From: Gammaproteobacteria bacterium
GTDB lineage: Bacteria; Pseudomonadota; Gammaproteobacteria; Pseudomonadales; CAMLJR01
Assembly (NCBI GenBank): GCA_029265075.1
Contig: JAJUJZ010000005.1
Coordinates: 1 to 55,907, forward strand
Length of the DNA: 55,907 bases
Reading direction: 5' to 3'
Under the pieces are notes generated by a model, which searched no databases, was not told where the DNA came from, and worked only from the letters and a program-made list of their open reading frames with translations. Position 1 is the first letter of the stretch; every line of letters starts with the position of its first letter. Shown one piece after another: positions 1,851-27,485 of this stretch. The translations under genes were made by a program, and so were the position numbers.

Positions 1851-3338
1851 ATGACTCACACCCCGCTGGACCACAGCCAATGCTACGCGGCCATTCAGGC
1901 GCACGATGCTCGCTTTGATGGTCTTTTTTTCGTGGCAGTGCGCAGCACCCGCATCTATTGTCGGCCGGTGTGCCGGGTGCGGCTGCCGCGGCCGGAAAAC
2001 TGCTCCTTTTTCCGTACTGCGGCCGGCGCCGAGCAGGCAGGTTACCGTCCCTGCCTGCGTTGCCGGCCCGAGCTGGCACCCGGTCTTGCCGGCGTCGATG
2101 CCGTGCGGCGCACGGCGCATCAGGCAGCCGAGCGCATCCGTCAGGGTGCGCTGGCGGAAGGGTCACTGGAAATGCTGGCGGCTGAATTCGGCCTCAGCTC
2201 GCGCCAGCTCCGCCGCGTGATTGAGGCGGAATACGGGGTCGGACCGCTGGCACTGGCGACCACTTATCGTCTCCATCTCGCCAGGCAGCTCCTGACCGAC
2301 ACTGATCTCAGGATCATCGACGTGGCTTACGCGAGCGGGTTCTCCAGCCTGCGCCGCTTCAATGATGCGCTGCGCCAGCACTATCGGCTGAAACCATCTG
2401 ATTTGCGTCGCGGCAAGCTGGGTCGTCACAGCACTGCATTCGCGCTGCGCCTCAGCTACCGGCCGCCGCTGGCATGGGACGTACTGGCAGGATTCCTCGC
2501 CAGTCGCGGCAACGCCCGCATCGAGCAGTATCAGGACGGACACTATCGCCGCTGCGTACGGCTCGGCACGCAGCTGGGCTGGATCGACGCGTACAACGAT
2601 GCCAGCGCCGCCCAGCTGGTGATCGAAGTCTCCTGCTCGCTGCTGGCCAGCCTGCCACGGCTGCTCGCGCGGCTGCGCATACTGTTTGATCTCGATGCCA
2701 GTCCACAACTGATCGACGCCCGGCTGTCGGAGGATCCGTTGCTGGCTCCGCTCATTGCACAGCACGCCGGCCTGCGCGTGCCCGGAGCGCTGGATCCGTT
2801 CGAGCTCTGTCTGCGAGCCATTCTCGGGCAGCAAGTCACAGTGAAGGCCGCCAGCACCCTGTTCAGTCGCTTTGTCGCAGCGTTCGGCGACACCGTCGAG
2901 ACACCATGGCCGGGGCTGGACCGGGCGGCACCGCAGGCCGCGACGCTCGCAGCGGCGCCGCTGCAGACGCTCATCGACCTGGGACTCACCCGCCGCCGGG
3001 CGGCGACTATCCACGCGATCGCGAACGGTGTGGTGCAGGGTGATCTGCAACTGAACAGCAGCGACCGTGCAGCCGTCATCGAGCGCCTGCTCACTTATCC
3101 CGGCATCGGGCCGTGGACGGCTCAGTACGTGGCCATGCGGGCACTGGGCGATCCCAACGCACTGCCGGCGTCCGACCTCGGACTGATGCGGGCGCTGTCG
3201 GTGGGCACCGCTCGCGAAGTCACCGCGCGCGCTGCCGCATGGCAGCCGTGGCGCGCCTATGCTGCGCTGCATATCTGGAGCAGTTCGCAGGCGCGTGCCG
3301 TACCCAGGGAGAGCATCGTATGTCCTGCTACACCGTGA
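1851..3338 (+). CDS. alkA: Ada N-domain/AraC/AlkA fusion: regulatory DNA-3-methyladenine glycosylase II
   Basis: A 495-residue three-part protein. Residues 1-75 are the Ada metal-binding methyl-phosphotriester domain, with Cys37, Cys41, Cys68 and Cys71 in the spacing of E. coli Ada Cys38/42/69/72. Residues about 100-195 are an AraC-type double helix-turn-helix ([30 protein letters not shown]). Residues about 205-490 are the AlkA glycosylase, with helix-hairpin-helix [15 protein letters not shown] and the probable catalytic Asp442 in ASDLGLMRA. By family knowledge it should sense methylated phosphate, activate the alkylation response and excise 3-methyladenine-type lesions. The 3' end overlaps ogt by 19 bp, so repair and regulation form one operon. 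Confidence 0.9.
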
Positions 3339-8169: not shown

Positions 8170-10278
8170 TCAGAACCGGTAGCCTACCGTGACCGAGCCG
8201 TTCAGTGGTGCGGCGTAATAGCCGACTTCATAAAGGCTGGTGAGATATTTCTCATTGGTCAGGTTGTTTACGTTCAGTAGTACATAGGCGTTGTCACTGA
8301 AATCCCAGCGCGCGAAACCGTTCACCAGCAGATAGCTGCGCTGACGGATTTCCACATTGGAGTAACCATCCAGTTTGGCGGTGTCACTCTGCCAGCGGCC
8401 GCTGAGGCCAATACTGATATCTGGATTAACCGGTAACCGCGAACTGATCGCGAAGTTGACCGTTCGGCGCGGCACCCATTCGTAGGTGTCGTCGCCCTGT
8501 TCATCCTCGAGCTGAAGCCAGGTTGCGCCGATCAGCACTTCGACATGGTCGCCAATCCGCCCCGACAGCTCCAGCTCGACGCCTTCCGACCTGATGTCTA
8601 CACCGGTGTAGTAATAGTTGTTGGTAGCCGGATTGAGTCCGACGAAAGTCCCCAGTCCTTCCTGCTCGGCACTGAACAGTGCCAGCGTCGTCAGCAGCTG
8701 ATCATCCAGCCATCCCGCCTTGACACCGGCTTCGTAGTTGACTCCCTTCGTCGGCGCCAGATATTCCTGATTGATGTCGTAATAGTCCTGCGGCTGATAG
8801 ATATCCGAATAGCTGGCGTAGACCAGCACTGCGTCGGTGATATCGACCGTTACGCCGGCATAGGGACTGATCTCACGCTCGCTCTGGCTGAACGGGTCGC
8901 TGAACAGATCGCCGTCGCGCCTGAACTCTATCGCGTTGACGCCAAGAACCACAGCAACGCGATCATGCGGCTTGAGCCGGGTGGCGCCGTACACGCGGGT
9001 CAGTTCGATATTCGTCAGACTGTAATGCGTACGGTCACCCCAGGCCGGCTCTGGTACCACATCGCCCCCATAGGGAAACGCCGGCAACGGCCCCCAGGCC
9101 GGATCAGTGCCGGACACCGGGCGCATGTGAAGCTTGCGGCGGCCTTCCGCATAGCTGACGCCGGCTGCCACTTCATGCTTTCGGCCGAAGGCCGAGAAGG
9201 CGCCGGTCAGCGCGAGGTCGAAAAGATGGGCATCGTCACGCGTGGGATAGCTGCCGGGATTACCCATCAGCCCCAGCCGGGTCACCGGATCGAAACCACT
9301 GGTGGCCTCCGGGAACACAAAGAAAAGTTTGCCGTCGTCCTCGAACAGCCGGTAGTTGTAGCTCAGCTTCAGCTCCCAGCCCGGTGCCAGGGCGACGGCG
9401 TATTCCGCGAATGCGTTATGGTTCTCCGTATCCCACCAGGCCCAGTCCTGCGAGGTGGAAGCACTCCGCCTGAAACTTGCCTGCGATCCGTCGCTGTAGC
9501 CCAGCACCAGCGCACCCCACATGTTCGAGTCGGTGTGGGAGACCTGATACGAATAGCCAGCAGTCAGCGTCGACCGGGCGCCGAGCTGCCCGTCGATCAC
9601 GCCGTACAGGAAGGTGCGGTCGTTCTCGAGGTCGCGTATGTGGGAGCCCCTGTCTTCGGTCGCCACCACCACGCGCGCCGCCCATTGACCGTCATCGGTC
9701 AGCGGCGCGGAGTAGTCAGCTTCGAGACGTACCAGATCTTCCGAGCCGGCCGTCATGCTGACACTGCCTTCGCGCTGGTTGGTGGGCCGTTTGCGAACGT
9801 AGTTGATGGTGCCGGCGGCGCTGCCGACGCCGGTCAGCAGACCGTTGGCCCCGCGGATCACCTCGATTTTGTCGAAGCCGAACGAATCGATCGCTCCCAC
9901 CACCAGCCCCCAGTTATTGGGCAGGCCGACGCCGTCAATCTGAGTGCTCTTGATCTCAAAGCCACGCGCTACATAGTTGGTCCGATTGGTTTCCCACTCC
10001 TCCACGGAGATGCCAGTCGCCAGTCGCAGCGCCTCGTTGAGGCTGTCGGCGCCGAAGTTCTGCATTTGCTGATAGTCGACAATGCTGATCGACTGGGGCG
10101 TCTCCCTGGGATCCAGCGGCAGACCGGTCGCCCCCTTGCTCGTCCTTGACTCCCGCACTGCGGTGATCAGCAACTCCTCCATGGCAGGAGGCGTCTGGCC
10201 ATTTTCTGAGGCCTGCAGGGAAGACGTGGCAACCAGCGCACTGAGCAGCGCCAGCCGCAGACAAGGGGCATCGGGCAT
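8170..10278 (-). CDS. TonB-dependent siderophore receptor
   Basis: An outer-membrane receptor of about 702 residues. The start at 10278 gives a signal peptide (CLRLALLSALVATSSLQA). GGAG lies 9 bp upstream, and the 32 residues further upstream look non-coding. The plug domain is seen in LDPRETPQSISIVDYQQMQNFGADSLNEAL (in pieces), IDGVGLPNNWG and IEVIRGANGLLTGVGSAAGTINYVRKRP. A beta-barrel rich in alternating strands follows and ends VGYYAAPLNGSVTVGYRF with the terminal Phe typical of BAM substrates. The layout matches TIGR01783-type ferric-siderophore receptors. The ligand is unknown. A dyad upstream at 10336-10358 is a possible iron-responsive operator. Confidence 0.92.
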   Translation of the reverse strand: MPDAPCLRLALLSALVATSSLQASENGQTPPAMEELLITAVRESRTSKGATGLPLDPRETPQSISIVDYQQMQNFGADSLNEALRLATGISVEEWETNRTNYVARGFEIKSTQIDGVGLPNNWGLVVGAIDSFGFDKIEVIRGANGLLTGVGSAAGTINYVRKRPTNQREGSVSMTAGSEDLVRLEADYSAPLTDDGQWAARVVVATEDRGSHIRDLENDRTFLYGVIDGQLGARSTLTAGYSYQVSHTDSNMWGALVLGYSDGSQASFRRSASTSQDWAWWDTENHNAFAEYAVALAPGWELKLSYNYRLFEDDGKLFFVFPEATSGFDPVTRLGLMGNPGSYPTRDDAHLFDLALTGAFSAFGRKHEVAAGVSYAEGRRKLHMRPVSGTDPAWGPLPAFPYGGDVVPEPAWGDRTHYSLTNIELTRVYGATRLKPHDRVAVVLGVNAIEFRRDGDLFSDPFSQSEREISPYAGVTVDITDAVLVYASYSDIYQPQDYYDINQEYLAPTKGVNYEAGVKAGWLDDQLLTTLALFSAEQEGLGTFVGLNPATNNYYYTGVDIRSEGVELELSGRIGDHVEVLIGATWLQLEDEQGDDTYEWVPRRTVNFAISSRLPVNPDISIGLSGRWQSDTAKLDGYSNVEIRQRSYLLVNGFARWDFSDNAYVLLNVNNLTNEKYLTSLYEVGYYAAPLNGSVTVGYRF

Positions 10279-10335
10279 CGGACCCATCTCCATTCCATGA
10301 GCTGAAAAACGCACAGTAATGCAAACCGGTCTCGG

Positions 10336-10358
10336 ATGCAAACGGTTATCGTTTACAT
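10336..10358. promoter_or_regulatory. 23-bp interrupted palindrome upstream of the siderophore receptor (candidate operator)
   Basis: ATG-c-AAACG-gttat-CGTTT-a-CAT is symmetric over 23 bp with only the central five bases and one flanking pair not pairing. It lies 58 bp before the receptor start. Part of it (ATGCAAAC) is repeated directly 17 bp away at 10319. Fur-type control of a siderophore receptor would be expected, but the match to the Fur 7-1-7 consensus is only partial. Confidence 0.5.
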
Positions 10359-10393
10359 TGCCGCGCCGAATCACTCCTCAGGCGCAGTCCGAT

Positions 10394-10419
10394 TCAGCCG
10401 TGATCGGTACCACGGCTGA
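10394..10419. repeat. inverted repeat, 9-bp arms, in the receptor/dioxygenase intergenic region
   Basis: TCAGCCGTG-N8-CACGGCTGA is a perfect 9-bp inverted repeat. It sits roughly midway between the divergent receptor and dioxygenase-like genes, in the only non-coding stretch there. It could be an operator or the base of an RNA hairpin. A smaller dyad (CAGCCTC-N5-GAGGCTG) follows at 10468-10486. Confidence 0.5.
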
Positions 10420-10518: not shown

Positions 10519-11440
10519 GTGGAACGTTTGCTTACCTTGGCGAAGGGCATGGATAGTTTTCGTCAGGCTGCCCGCATCGGACGGCACGATCACCCCCTCA
10601 GCACGCTCAGGCAAGCCCTGAGTCGCTGGCGAGTACGCTCCCTCGTCAGCAGCATCCGCGCGCTGATTCATTTCGGCCCGTGGCGGCATCTCTGTCGCGC
10701 TGCAGTACGGCTCAGCCGGCCGCCCGTTCACATGGCGCCCCGGCAGAGCGAGCGGCCCTCACTCCTGCCGCAGCTCGACACTTCATCAGCAGTGAGGCAG
10801 TTGCAGCAATCGAGCTACGCCGTAGTCGGTGCGCTGCACCCAGCACCACTGGCACGTCTGCGATCGATCACCGAACGCCTGCCGCTGGGTGAATATCCAC
10901 TGATGCATCTTGATCGACGACGACATCGCTGACCTCGCTCGCGATCCGCAGGTGCTGGCAGTGCTGCGGGCCTGGTTCCGCTGTGAACCGGTGCTGCTTG
11001 AATCAACCCTGATGGTGACCGGTGGCCAGGGCTCACTGCGCAGCGGCGACCAGACCCACTTTCACTACGACTTTGCGGGCTGGCACTCGCTCAACCTCTT
11101 CCTCTACCTCACTGATGTGCAAGAGGGCTCCGCCGTGCACGAGGTCGTGAGCGGCAGCGATCGCAGCATCGGGCTGCGCGAGATCTGCCTCTCCGTGAAT
11201 CGCACCGAACAGCGGGTGGTCCGCCACTTTGGCGCGGCCATCCATCCCATCATGGGGCCTGCTGGCACGCTGTTTTTCGAACACACTGAGGCGCTGCACC
11301 GTCGCCGCATCAGTGGCGAACGTCGTGTCATGCTCAATCTGCTCTATGCCAGCCACCGCGGCTGGCTCAGTCACGGGCGCGCATCCGCTGAGCAGCTCCG
11401 GCGGCGCGCCCGGCAGTGGGCAGCCGCCTCGGACGCCTGA
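10519..11440 (+). pseudogene. phytanoyl-CoA dioxygenase (PhyH)-like gene, apparently frameshifted near 10905-10912
   Basis: Two frames together make one plausible Fe(II)/2-oxoglutarate dioxygenase-like protein of about 305 residues. Frame 1 (10519-10932) supplies the N-part, ending LRSITERLPLGEYPLMH. Frame 2 (from about 10910 to 11440) continues IDDDIADLARDPQVLAVL, then the metal ligands His-Tyr-Asp in HFHYDFAGWH, the strand LNLFLYLTDV, and a distal His in HTEALHRRR. Frame 2 has no credible start of its own: its first usable codon is a TTG with no ribosome site. A one-base change would restore a single frame. It could be a real mutation or an assembly error. Substrate unknown; the gene is divergent from the siderophore receptor. 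Confidence 0.65.
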
Positions 11441-24401: not shown

Positions 24402-27400
24402 TCAGGAGATGCGGCTCAGCAGGCTCTGCGCCTCTTCCTTCTGCGGATCGGTTCCTTCCACCACCACTTCATCGAGAATGTCGCGGGCACCCGCCGTGTC
24501 ACCCATGTCGATATAGGCGCGGGCCAGATCGAGCTTGGTTGCCACCTCATCAGCGTCGGCAAGGAAATCGAACTCGTCCTCAGCGTCAGCTGCCGCCAGT
24601 TCCGGGGTATAGGGTTCGAGGTCCGTCAGGTCAGGCAGGTCCGTGCCAAACGGCGTCTCTTCCGCAGCAGGCTCCAGCGCGTCGTCTGCCAGCAGGTCGT
24701 CGCCAGACTCGTCATCGGTATCGCCGGCCAGTGCCGCCGCGAACTCGTCGAGTTCGCCGAGCACATCCTCATCTTCGTCGGTTGCAGCCGTCGACGTGGC
24801 ACCCGGCAGCTCCCCGAGGCTGTCGAGACTTTCCAGCTCATCCAGCTCATCGATCTCTTCCAGATCGCCCAGGCCTTCGAGTTCGAACCCGCCGCTCGCG
24901 GGCGCCGCCGACTCCTCTGCGGCGGTCTCACTGGTATCTGCTGGCTCGTCGAGCCCGCTCATCAGCTCGTTGAAGGCGGCATCCAGATCCGCATCGCTGA
25001 TCGCTTCGTCATCTGCTGCCGGTTCCGCCGGCTCTGCTGGCGACAGCTCGGTGGCGGGCAGATCAAATGCTGCAATCTCTTGTTCCAGCTCATCCGTGGG
25101 CTCGACCTCGAAAGCGTCGAAGGCTGCATCGAGGGACTCCTGCTCCAGCTCGGAAAGATCGAGATCCAGGTCGCCTTCGAGATCGAGTTCGCCGTCCAGC
25201 TCCAGCTCGGCGTCATCAGCCAGCGTTTCGGCTGCTGGCTCGTCAGCAGGCGCTTCCGACCCAGTCCCGTCTGCTTCGTCCGCTGCTGCAGCTTCCACCC
25301 GCGACTCTTCACTACGCTCTTCGAACTCGAGGTCGTCGAGCCCAAAAAGGTTGACGTCCGCGTCCTCTTCCGCCGTCTCCGGCTCTGAGGTACCCAGCTC
25401 CGCGGTGTCGAGCTCCAGGTCGCTGAAATCGAGTTCCTGTTCAGTCCCGTCCTGCGGCGTCACGAGATCATCGAGGTCGAGCAGCGGGCCTTCTTCTTCC
25501 ACTGGCTCCTCCCGGTCGAAGATCAGCTCGTCCTCGGCGTCGCTGGTCTCAGTATCGTCTTCCGCGCCAGTCATCGCCGCCGCAGCCGCACCACCCAGCG
25601 CTGCAGCGCCCAGAGCGGCCGCGCCTGTCAGCGATGCTGAAGCGGGTGTGTCTCCCAGATCATCGAGCCAGCCGTCGACACCATCGACCGACGACAGCAG
25701 CTCCTTGACCTGCGCCACCGCCGGCTCGTCACCCAGCGACAGGAGCTGGCGGAACTCGGCCCGAAACGCGTCGCGCTCACGCATCTCGAGGTAGACCTCG
25801 AGCAGCTTGACGCGCAGATCACTGCGCGCCGGCTCCTGGGCAATGGCTGACTGCAGCAGATCAACGGCCTGCTGGTAGCGGCCATAGGCGATGTAGATAT
25901 CGGCTTCGGCCACAGCATCGCCGGTCTGGGAACGCACCGGCTCAGCGGCCGGCGCTTCAGAGGCTGCTGCCTCTTCGGCTGCAGCCTCCACTTCGTCACG
26001 CGGCGCGATGCCGTCATCGCTGACAACGACATCGTCACGGTCGAGCTGCTCGTCGGCAGCGAACACCACTGGCGGCGTGTCGTCTTCTTCGAGCGCGGCC
26101 AGCGCTTCGCGCTCAGCAGCGGCACGGCGGCGCTGTGCAATGATGAGTGCGGCCAGCAGGATCAGGGCGGCGCCGCCGGCAATCGGCAGCCATAGCATCG
26201 CCATCAGATCATCGATCAGTGAGCCTGATGAGCTGGCCGGAGCCGTCGCTGGTGCTGGCTGGGGCTGCGAGGCGTCGGTCGCCGCGGGCGCAGTATCCGG
26301 TGCAGCCGGTGCAGTCGCCGGGGGCGCAGCCTCTGTGGTATCGCCGGCAGCTGCCTGCAGGGCCGCCAGCTGATCGTCTTTCAGCGTCAGCAGTCGCTGC
26401 AGCGTTGCAATCTGCCGCTCCATGTCATCGAGGCGAGATTCCAGCTCGGCATTTTCGCGCCGGGCGCTGTCGAGGCTTTCACGGGCTGCGGCAAGCTCGT
26501 CACGCAGCGCAGCGCCCTCCCCTGCCCCGGCAGCCGCACCATCACTGGCAGTCAGGCGATCGCTGTCACCAGCCGTCGCAATGGACAGGCGCTCCCGCTC
26601 CTGCGGACCCGCGTCGTCGCTGGCGGCGGGCCGGCGGGCATCAAGCTGCGGTCCGGCCAGAGTCGTCGCAGGCGCACGGCCGCTGCGCCATGCTTCGTTG
26701 TGTTCACGCACGGTTGCCAGTGCCACATCAGCACTGACGGCCCGGACAGCGTCAGCAGATGGAATACGCAGTACGTATCCCGACTTCACCAGATTGATGT
26801 TGCCGCGAATGAATGCCTCCGGGTTAGCCTGCTGGATGGCCACCATCGTCTGCTGGAGGTTGACGTCGCCAGAAGGCCGGAACCGTGCCGCGATGGAAGA
26901 GAGAGTGTCGTTGTGCTGAACCCGGTACTCACCCGGGCCCGTAGCTGCTGGCTGGGTCAGCTGCGGGCGCGGCGAGGCTCCCGCTGCTGACTGCTGTGAT
27001 ACGCGCGGCCCTACGGCCGGGGACTGAGTCCGCTGCTGCACCGTCGCGAGGGCTGAGCCCGTCGCGGCGGGCGCCGGCGCGGCGCTGAAGGTGGGCGGGT
27101 CCAGCAGCACAGCGTATTCACGCAGCAGGCGCCCGCTGGGCCAGCGAGTTTCGACAATGAAATTGAGATAGGGCTCGACGACTGCTTCGCGTGTCGTCAC
27201 GCGAATGACGCCATTGCCGCGCTGATCGAGTTCGACGTTGAAACGCAGATTGGTCAGGAAATAGTCGCGCTCGACACCGGCCCGCTGAAAATCCTCCGGC
27301 GCGGCCAGCTGGACCCTGATCTGGGTCTCATCCAGATCGCCGGCGTCGAACAGCCGGATCTCCGCGTCAAGCGGCTGGTTCAGGGAAGATTTGACCGCCA

Positions 27401-27485
27401 CATTGCCAAGACCCAGCGCACTGGCGATATCCGCTTGCAGCGCGCTCAGCGCCAGCACAGCCATCGCGATCTTCTTCCGCACCAT
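24402..27485 (-). CDS. fimV: FimV-type peptidoglycan-binding polar hub protein
   Basis: A 1027-residue bitopic protein. Signal peptide (residues 1-24); FimV N-domain (ALGLGNVAVKSSLNQPLDAEI, then EDFQRAGVERDYFLTNL); a LysM-like domain (about residues 186-245, YRVQHNDTLSSIA); a coiled coil (about 335-380); a transmembrane helix (about 428-450); a TPR-like region (about 523-587, DIYIAYGRYQQAVDLLQSA); then about 380 very acidic, Glu/Asp/Leu-rich residues; and the conserved FimV C-terminal TPR (from about 975, TKLDLARAYIDMGDTAGARDILDEV). In Pseudomonas FimV organises type IV pili and polar signalling. No pilus genes lie nearby, and the acidic linker is repetitive in composition. Confidence 0.93.
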   Translation of the reverse strand: MVRKKIAMAVLALSALQADIASALGLGNVAVKSSLNQPLDAEIRLFDAGDLDETQIRVQLAAPEDFQRAGVERDYFLTNLRFNVELDQRGNGVIRVTTREAVVEPYLNFIVETRWPSGRLLREYAVLLDPPTFSAAPAPAATGSALATVQQRTQSPAVGPRVSQQSAAGASPRPQLTQPAATGPGEYRVQHNDTLSSIAARFRPSGDVNLQQTMVAIQQANPEAFIRGNINLVKSGYVLRIPSADAVRAVSADVALATVREHNEAWRSGRAPATTLAGPQLDARRPAASDDAGPQERERLSIATAGDSDRLTASDGAAAGAGEGAALRDELAAARESLDSARRENAELESRLDDMERQIATLQRLLTLKDDQLAALQAAAGDTTEAAPPATAPAAPDTAPAATDASQPQPAPATAPASSSGSLIDDLMAMLWLPIAGGAALILLAALIIAQRRRAAAEREALAALEEDDTPPVVFAADEQLDRDDVVVSDDGIAPRDEVEAAAEEAAASEAPAAEPVRSQTGDAVAEADIYIAYGRYQQAVDLLQSAIAQEPARSDLRVKLLEVYLEMRERDAFRAEFRQLLSLGDEPAVAQVKELLSSVDGVDGWLDDLGDTPASASLTGAAALGAAALGGAAAAAMTGAEDDTETSDAEDELIFDREEPVEEEGPLLDLDDLVTPQDGTEQELDFSDLELDTAELGTSEPETAEEDADVNLFGLDDLEFEERSEESRVEAAAADEADGTGSEAPADEPAAETLADDAELELDGELDLEGDLDLDLSELEQESLDAAFDAFEVEPTDELEQEIAAFDLPATELSPAEPAEPAADDEAISDADLDAAFNELMSGLDEPADTSETAAEESAAPASGGFELEGLGDLEEIDELDELESLDSLGELPGATSTAATDEDEDVLGELDEFAAALAGDTDDESGDDLLADDALEPAAEETPFGTDLPDLTDLEPYTPELAAADAEDEFDFLADADEVATKLDLARAYIDMGDTAGARDILDEVVVEGTDPQKEEAQSLLSRIS

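Follow-up and report, generated by a model that had tools for sequence, protein, structure and literature searches.

The question raised by this locus is whether two short reading frames that adjoin each other on the forward strand belong to one gene and, if so, what the change of frame between them means. The window, that is, the whole stretch of DNA analysed (55,907 nucleotides; G000:C163:1-55907), is present once in assembly G000 and carries a GTG-started frame (10519-10932, +, frame 1, 137 aa), here called the N-part, and a TTG-started frame (10910-11440, +, frame 2, 176 aa), here called the C-part. A preliminary description had assigned both to one Fe(II)/2-oxoglutarate (2OG) dioxygenase-like protein split by a one-base shift. 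The two frames are indeed present at these coordinates, the N-part runs out of frame after LPLGEYPLMH, and the HYD motif lies in the C-part, all as described there. The features are listed in Table 1.

Table 1. Features of the split dioxygenase-like locus, in window coordinates
Feature	Position	Strand	Remarks
N-terminal part of dioxygenase-like gene	10519..10908	+	frame 1, ends at last residue alignable with relatives; 33% over 131 aa to L013
Start codon of N-part	GTG 10519 or ATG 10549	+	uncertain
Junction, reading frame +1	10909..10912	+	4 bases versus 3 in L013
C-terminal part of same gene, with stop codon	10913..11440	+	frame 2; 49% over 169 aa to L013; 31 plasmid records matched (tblastn)
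HYD codons; H52 and D54 of the C-part are putative metal ligands	11063..11071	+	both residues invariant in alignments A1 and A3
Codon of the distal His (H130 of the C-part), putatively the third metal ligand	11297..11299	+	invariant in A1 and A3
Codon of R139 of the C-part, which may anchor 2-oxoglutarate	11324..11326	+	invariant in A1 and A3

A first scan of genome contigs with the single C-part sequence yielded no relative. Among plasmids, 31 records were matched by tblastn (Azospirillum, Rhizobium, Sinorhizobium, and others), all with less than 60% identity and, for the 20 listed of the 31, with 26–34%. An alignment of the C-part with eight plasmid homologues (A1) was then used as a profile against the genome contigs, which gave 223 relatives; 80 of these were retained, with locus L013 from Marinobacter denitrificans as the best match (48% identity in that search). 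A second alignment (A3) comprises 41 full-length relatives. Phage records contained no match, and a viral scan with the A1 profile found no relative.

In M. denitrificans JB02H27 the two halves lie side by side in one frame of 307 aa (L013:2602-3525). Both align nearly over their full length: in single-subject searches residues 3–130 of the N-part (E = 5e-17) and residues 2–170 of the C-part (E = 3e-50) matched L013 with the identities given in Table 1. A near-identical protein (L096, in genome G323) is likewise encoded in one continuous frame, and these two Marinobacter sequences are the closest intact evidence. In each of the 88 homologous loci considered (8 from plasmids and 80 from genome contigs), at least 93 codons upstream of the C-part are free of stops in its frame, as compared with 3 codons in the window. 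Homologues starting at the second frame, which the preliminary description had regarded as speaking against a single gene, were sought among these loci and none was found; L070, which had been taken for one, has a frame that is open further upstream (at least 93 codons) and is therefore no exception. Because the frame of L013 is continuous, because four window bases correspond to one codon of L013 when its protein is used as query (tblastn), and because the frame is open upstream in 88 of 88 loci, the two frames are the halves of one gene with a net +1 frame change. The split gene proposed in the preliminary description is thus borne out.

The junction itself reads CATCTTGATC (10906-10915) and lies just 5′ of three GAC triplets (10916-10924); it contains no homopolymer longer than two bases. 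Contrary to the preliminary description, it does not lie in a run of GA repeats. In agreement with the switch at this position, the codon-preference scores pass from frame 1 to frame 2 between blocks 10835-10924 and 10880-10969. Only one lesion was seen: the N-frame is open from a stop at 10417 to the junction, and the C-frame is open to 11438. In the remaining homologues, whose C-parts are less than 40% identical, the linker at the junction appears by eye to be longer (about 10–25 residues). The longer linker of the Azospirillum and Rhizobium homologues had suggested a deletion of some 20–25 codons at this point; the idea was dropped, the linker of L013 being as short as that of the window gene.

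As to the enzyme family, the C-part holds an HxD...H triad and a downstream Arg, to which only putative roles can be assigned. H52, D54, H130, and R139 are invariant in A1, the same columns are invariant in A3, and all four residues are shared by L013. By analogy with the superfamily we take H52, D54, and H130 to be metal ligands, and R139 presumably anchors 2-oxoglutarate. Scans of Pfam, NCBIfam, and PHROGs with both window parts returned no family, and a PDB sequence search with the C-part returned nothing. The Pfam family PhyH (PF05721; phytanoyl-CoA dioxygenase and bacterial relatives) is matched by 37 of the 41 relatives (E ≤ 0.01), whereas its gathering score is reached neither by the two window parts nor by L013, and for this reason the window gene is filed as a PhyH relative on a divergent branch rather than as a scored member. 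The PKHD-type Pfam family, that of the dioxygenase PiuC, is not among the Pfam hits of the 41 relatives.

A profile of the 41 relatives matches GriE (E = 1e-4) and EctD in the PDB, and the AlphaFold2 model of the intact relative L013 (pLDDT 78.8, pTM 0.75) has a double-stranded beta-helix fold, the best PDB matches of which are all Fe/2OG oxygenases. For example, the comparisons with ColD, H11, FtmOx1, and GriE gave VIA-align Z values of about 19–20 over 183–209 residues, and EctD is among the best Foldseek matches. These proteins of solved structure, which include the leucine hydroxylase GriE, the proline hydroxylase H11, and the ectoine hydroxylase EctD, have the same fold as the L013 model. 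Identities are about 14–22%, and the substrate of the window gene is not inferable from them. The family matches and the modelled fold of L013 thus support the view that the window gene encodes, or once encoded, a PhyH-type Fe(II)/2OG-dependent oxygenase, and since the model has this fold, the earlier guess at the family holds. In the model, helices 90–100 and 110–121 and strand 102–107 are confidently predicted and all lie upstream of the break; because the N-part corresponds to these elements, the C-part on its own would make up only part of the fold.

One gene with one frame switch, its catalytic residues downstream of the break, can be explained in several ways. In our opinion the locus is a frame-broken gene of a PhyH-like oxygenase, probably by a real and recent loss-of-function indel, to which we give a probability of about 0.6 and which we consider likelier than a sequence error. 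The gene of a PhyH-type Fe(II)/2OG-dependent oxygenase would then be broken at about codon 131 (net +1). Ribosomes starting at the N-terminus would add about six wrong residues past the junction and stop at 10932, releasing a product that would lack any metal ligand, and the C-terminal part has neither a plausible start signal nor the conserved first strand of the fold. The indel would have arisen recently in the sequenced population and turned the locus into a young pseudogene, the oxygenase being dispensable and patchily distributed. We infer that the frame change is real and the product inactive. A literature search for phytanoyl-CoA dioxygenase together with frameshift and pseudogene retrieved no paper.

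That the lesion is recent, or else an artefact, follows from the otherwise open gene and from an N-part that is not over-diverged. Its identity to L013 is 33%. Among 820 intact pairs, the 73 with a similar C-part identity average 27% (sd 4.8) in this region; judged by these pairs, the divergence of the N-part is not raised. It should be noted that in codon bias the N-part (10519-10908) ranks at the 2.2nd percentile among 362 genes of the genome and the C-part at the 21.8th, the low value of the N-part counting against a plain, strongly native gene. The dioxygenase gene is absent from the congener G001 and has a match in 20 other genomes of the 390 in the order. The gene is dispensable in the group, and in view of this distribution its recent horizontal arrival is possible. 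Internal stops are absent from 21 of the 22 matches in other genomes of the order. A weak relative (L105; G340:C87:35656-36003; E 4e-6) has three stops in frame and is possibly another decayed copy.

The only other explanation with an appreciable, if clearly smaller, chance of being right is that the organism has an intact gene, the frame change being an assembly or consensus error. In favour of this, the gene is open apart from one lesion, its catalytic residues are conserved, and its divergence is not excessive; the genome is fragmented (214 contigs totalling 2,786,570 bases, 89.89% complete), and the sequence fits a local assembly error as well as it fits a real lesion. Homopolymers are the commonest place for indel errors of this kind, however, and the junction has none longer than two bases. 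Furthermore, 1072 genes from a 1598-kb sample of the same-genus genome G001 were set against 606 kb of G000: the 116 genes matched at ≥40% identity (110 kb) and the 208 matched at ≥30% identity (148 kb) showed no other frame break, whereas L013 as query recovered the break at 10909-10912 in the same test. Two further breaks on contig C20 (L161) were discarded once the reference genes had been re-chosen by codon preference; they are antisense shadow ORFs, as the genes retained there are on the opposite strand. Since no other break occurs in the 116 genes, widespread assembly error is less likely, but by the rule of three the absence of breaks in 110 kb is compatible with error rates of up to roughly one per 37 kb, and one local error still fits.

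The preliminary description had offered inactivation, sequencing error, and recoding side by side. The first two both still fit; the third finds no support. Programmed +1 ribosomal frameshifting would join both frames into one protein, and indeed the shift is +1, both frames are otherwise open, and the junction has a CUU codon, like the shift site of prfB. All of the 88 homologous loci are continuous, however, so that there is no conserved shift site; the next codon, GAU, is a common one (25 per 1000) and not a stop; RNA downstream of the junction folds no better than shuffled sequences (z = −0.13); and no Shine-Dalgarno-like stretch is seen by eye close to the shift site. A recoding site confined to this lineage, at which a little full-length oxygenase would be made in certain conditions only, seems just as improbable. 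Least credible of all is that the frames encode two separate functional proteins, the second starting at TTG 10910, for although this codon is in frame at the junction and all of the conserved residues that are putative ligands lie in the C-part, 0 of 88 relatives start there, no Shine-Dalgarno-like stretch is seen by eye upstream of 10910, and strand 102–107 with its two flanking helices lies upstream of the break in the L013 model.

The divergently oriented neighbour (8170-10374, −) encodes a TonB-dependent siderophore-type receptor (TIGR01783, 279.3 bits versus a cut-off of 223.5), and a role of the oxygenase in iron-related metabolism had been suggested on account of it. The receptor is FhuE-like, scoring below the FhuE cut-off, and its best match in G001 is 52% identical. 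The receptor is of the siderophore type, as had been assumed, yet it does not adjoin the homologues examined, and the suggestion finds no backing. For example, none of the eight plasmid homologues has an annotated TonB receptor within about 3 kb, L013 has other neighbours, with no ORF long enough for such a receptor, G323 has the dioxygenase homologue and the receptor on different contigs, and G001 has kept the receptor (52%) and has no dioxygenase match. The pairing of receptor and dioxygenase is not conserved among the homologues examined. A precedent for such a partnership is cciT-cciO / PiuA-PiuC (PMC12004947). There, too, a gene for a TonB-type receptor lies beside a dioxygenase-like gene, but the two form an operon and are co-conserved, whereas the window pair is divergent and unconserved beside the homologues. 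Elsewhere in the window, 1851-3338 (+) encodes a protein of the Ada-AlkA fusion type with Ada zinc-binding, AraC-type HTH, AlkA N-terminal, and HhH-GPD domains in one frame, and 24402-27485 (−) encodes a protein of 1027 aa with a FimV N-terminal domain.

The finding is most likely an ordinary frame-broken gene and nothing of a new kind, and no open question is settled by it. Annotation of this assembly should mark the copy as frame-disrupted rather than as two proteins. What the finding adds is a small branch of PhyH-like oxygenases that otherwise has no name, intact members of which are found in Marinobacter.
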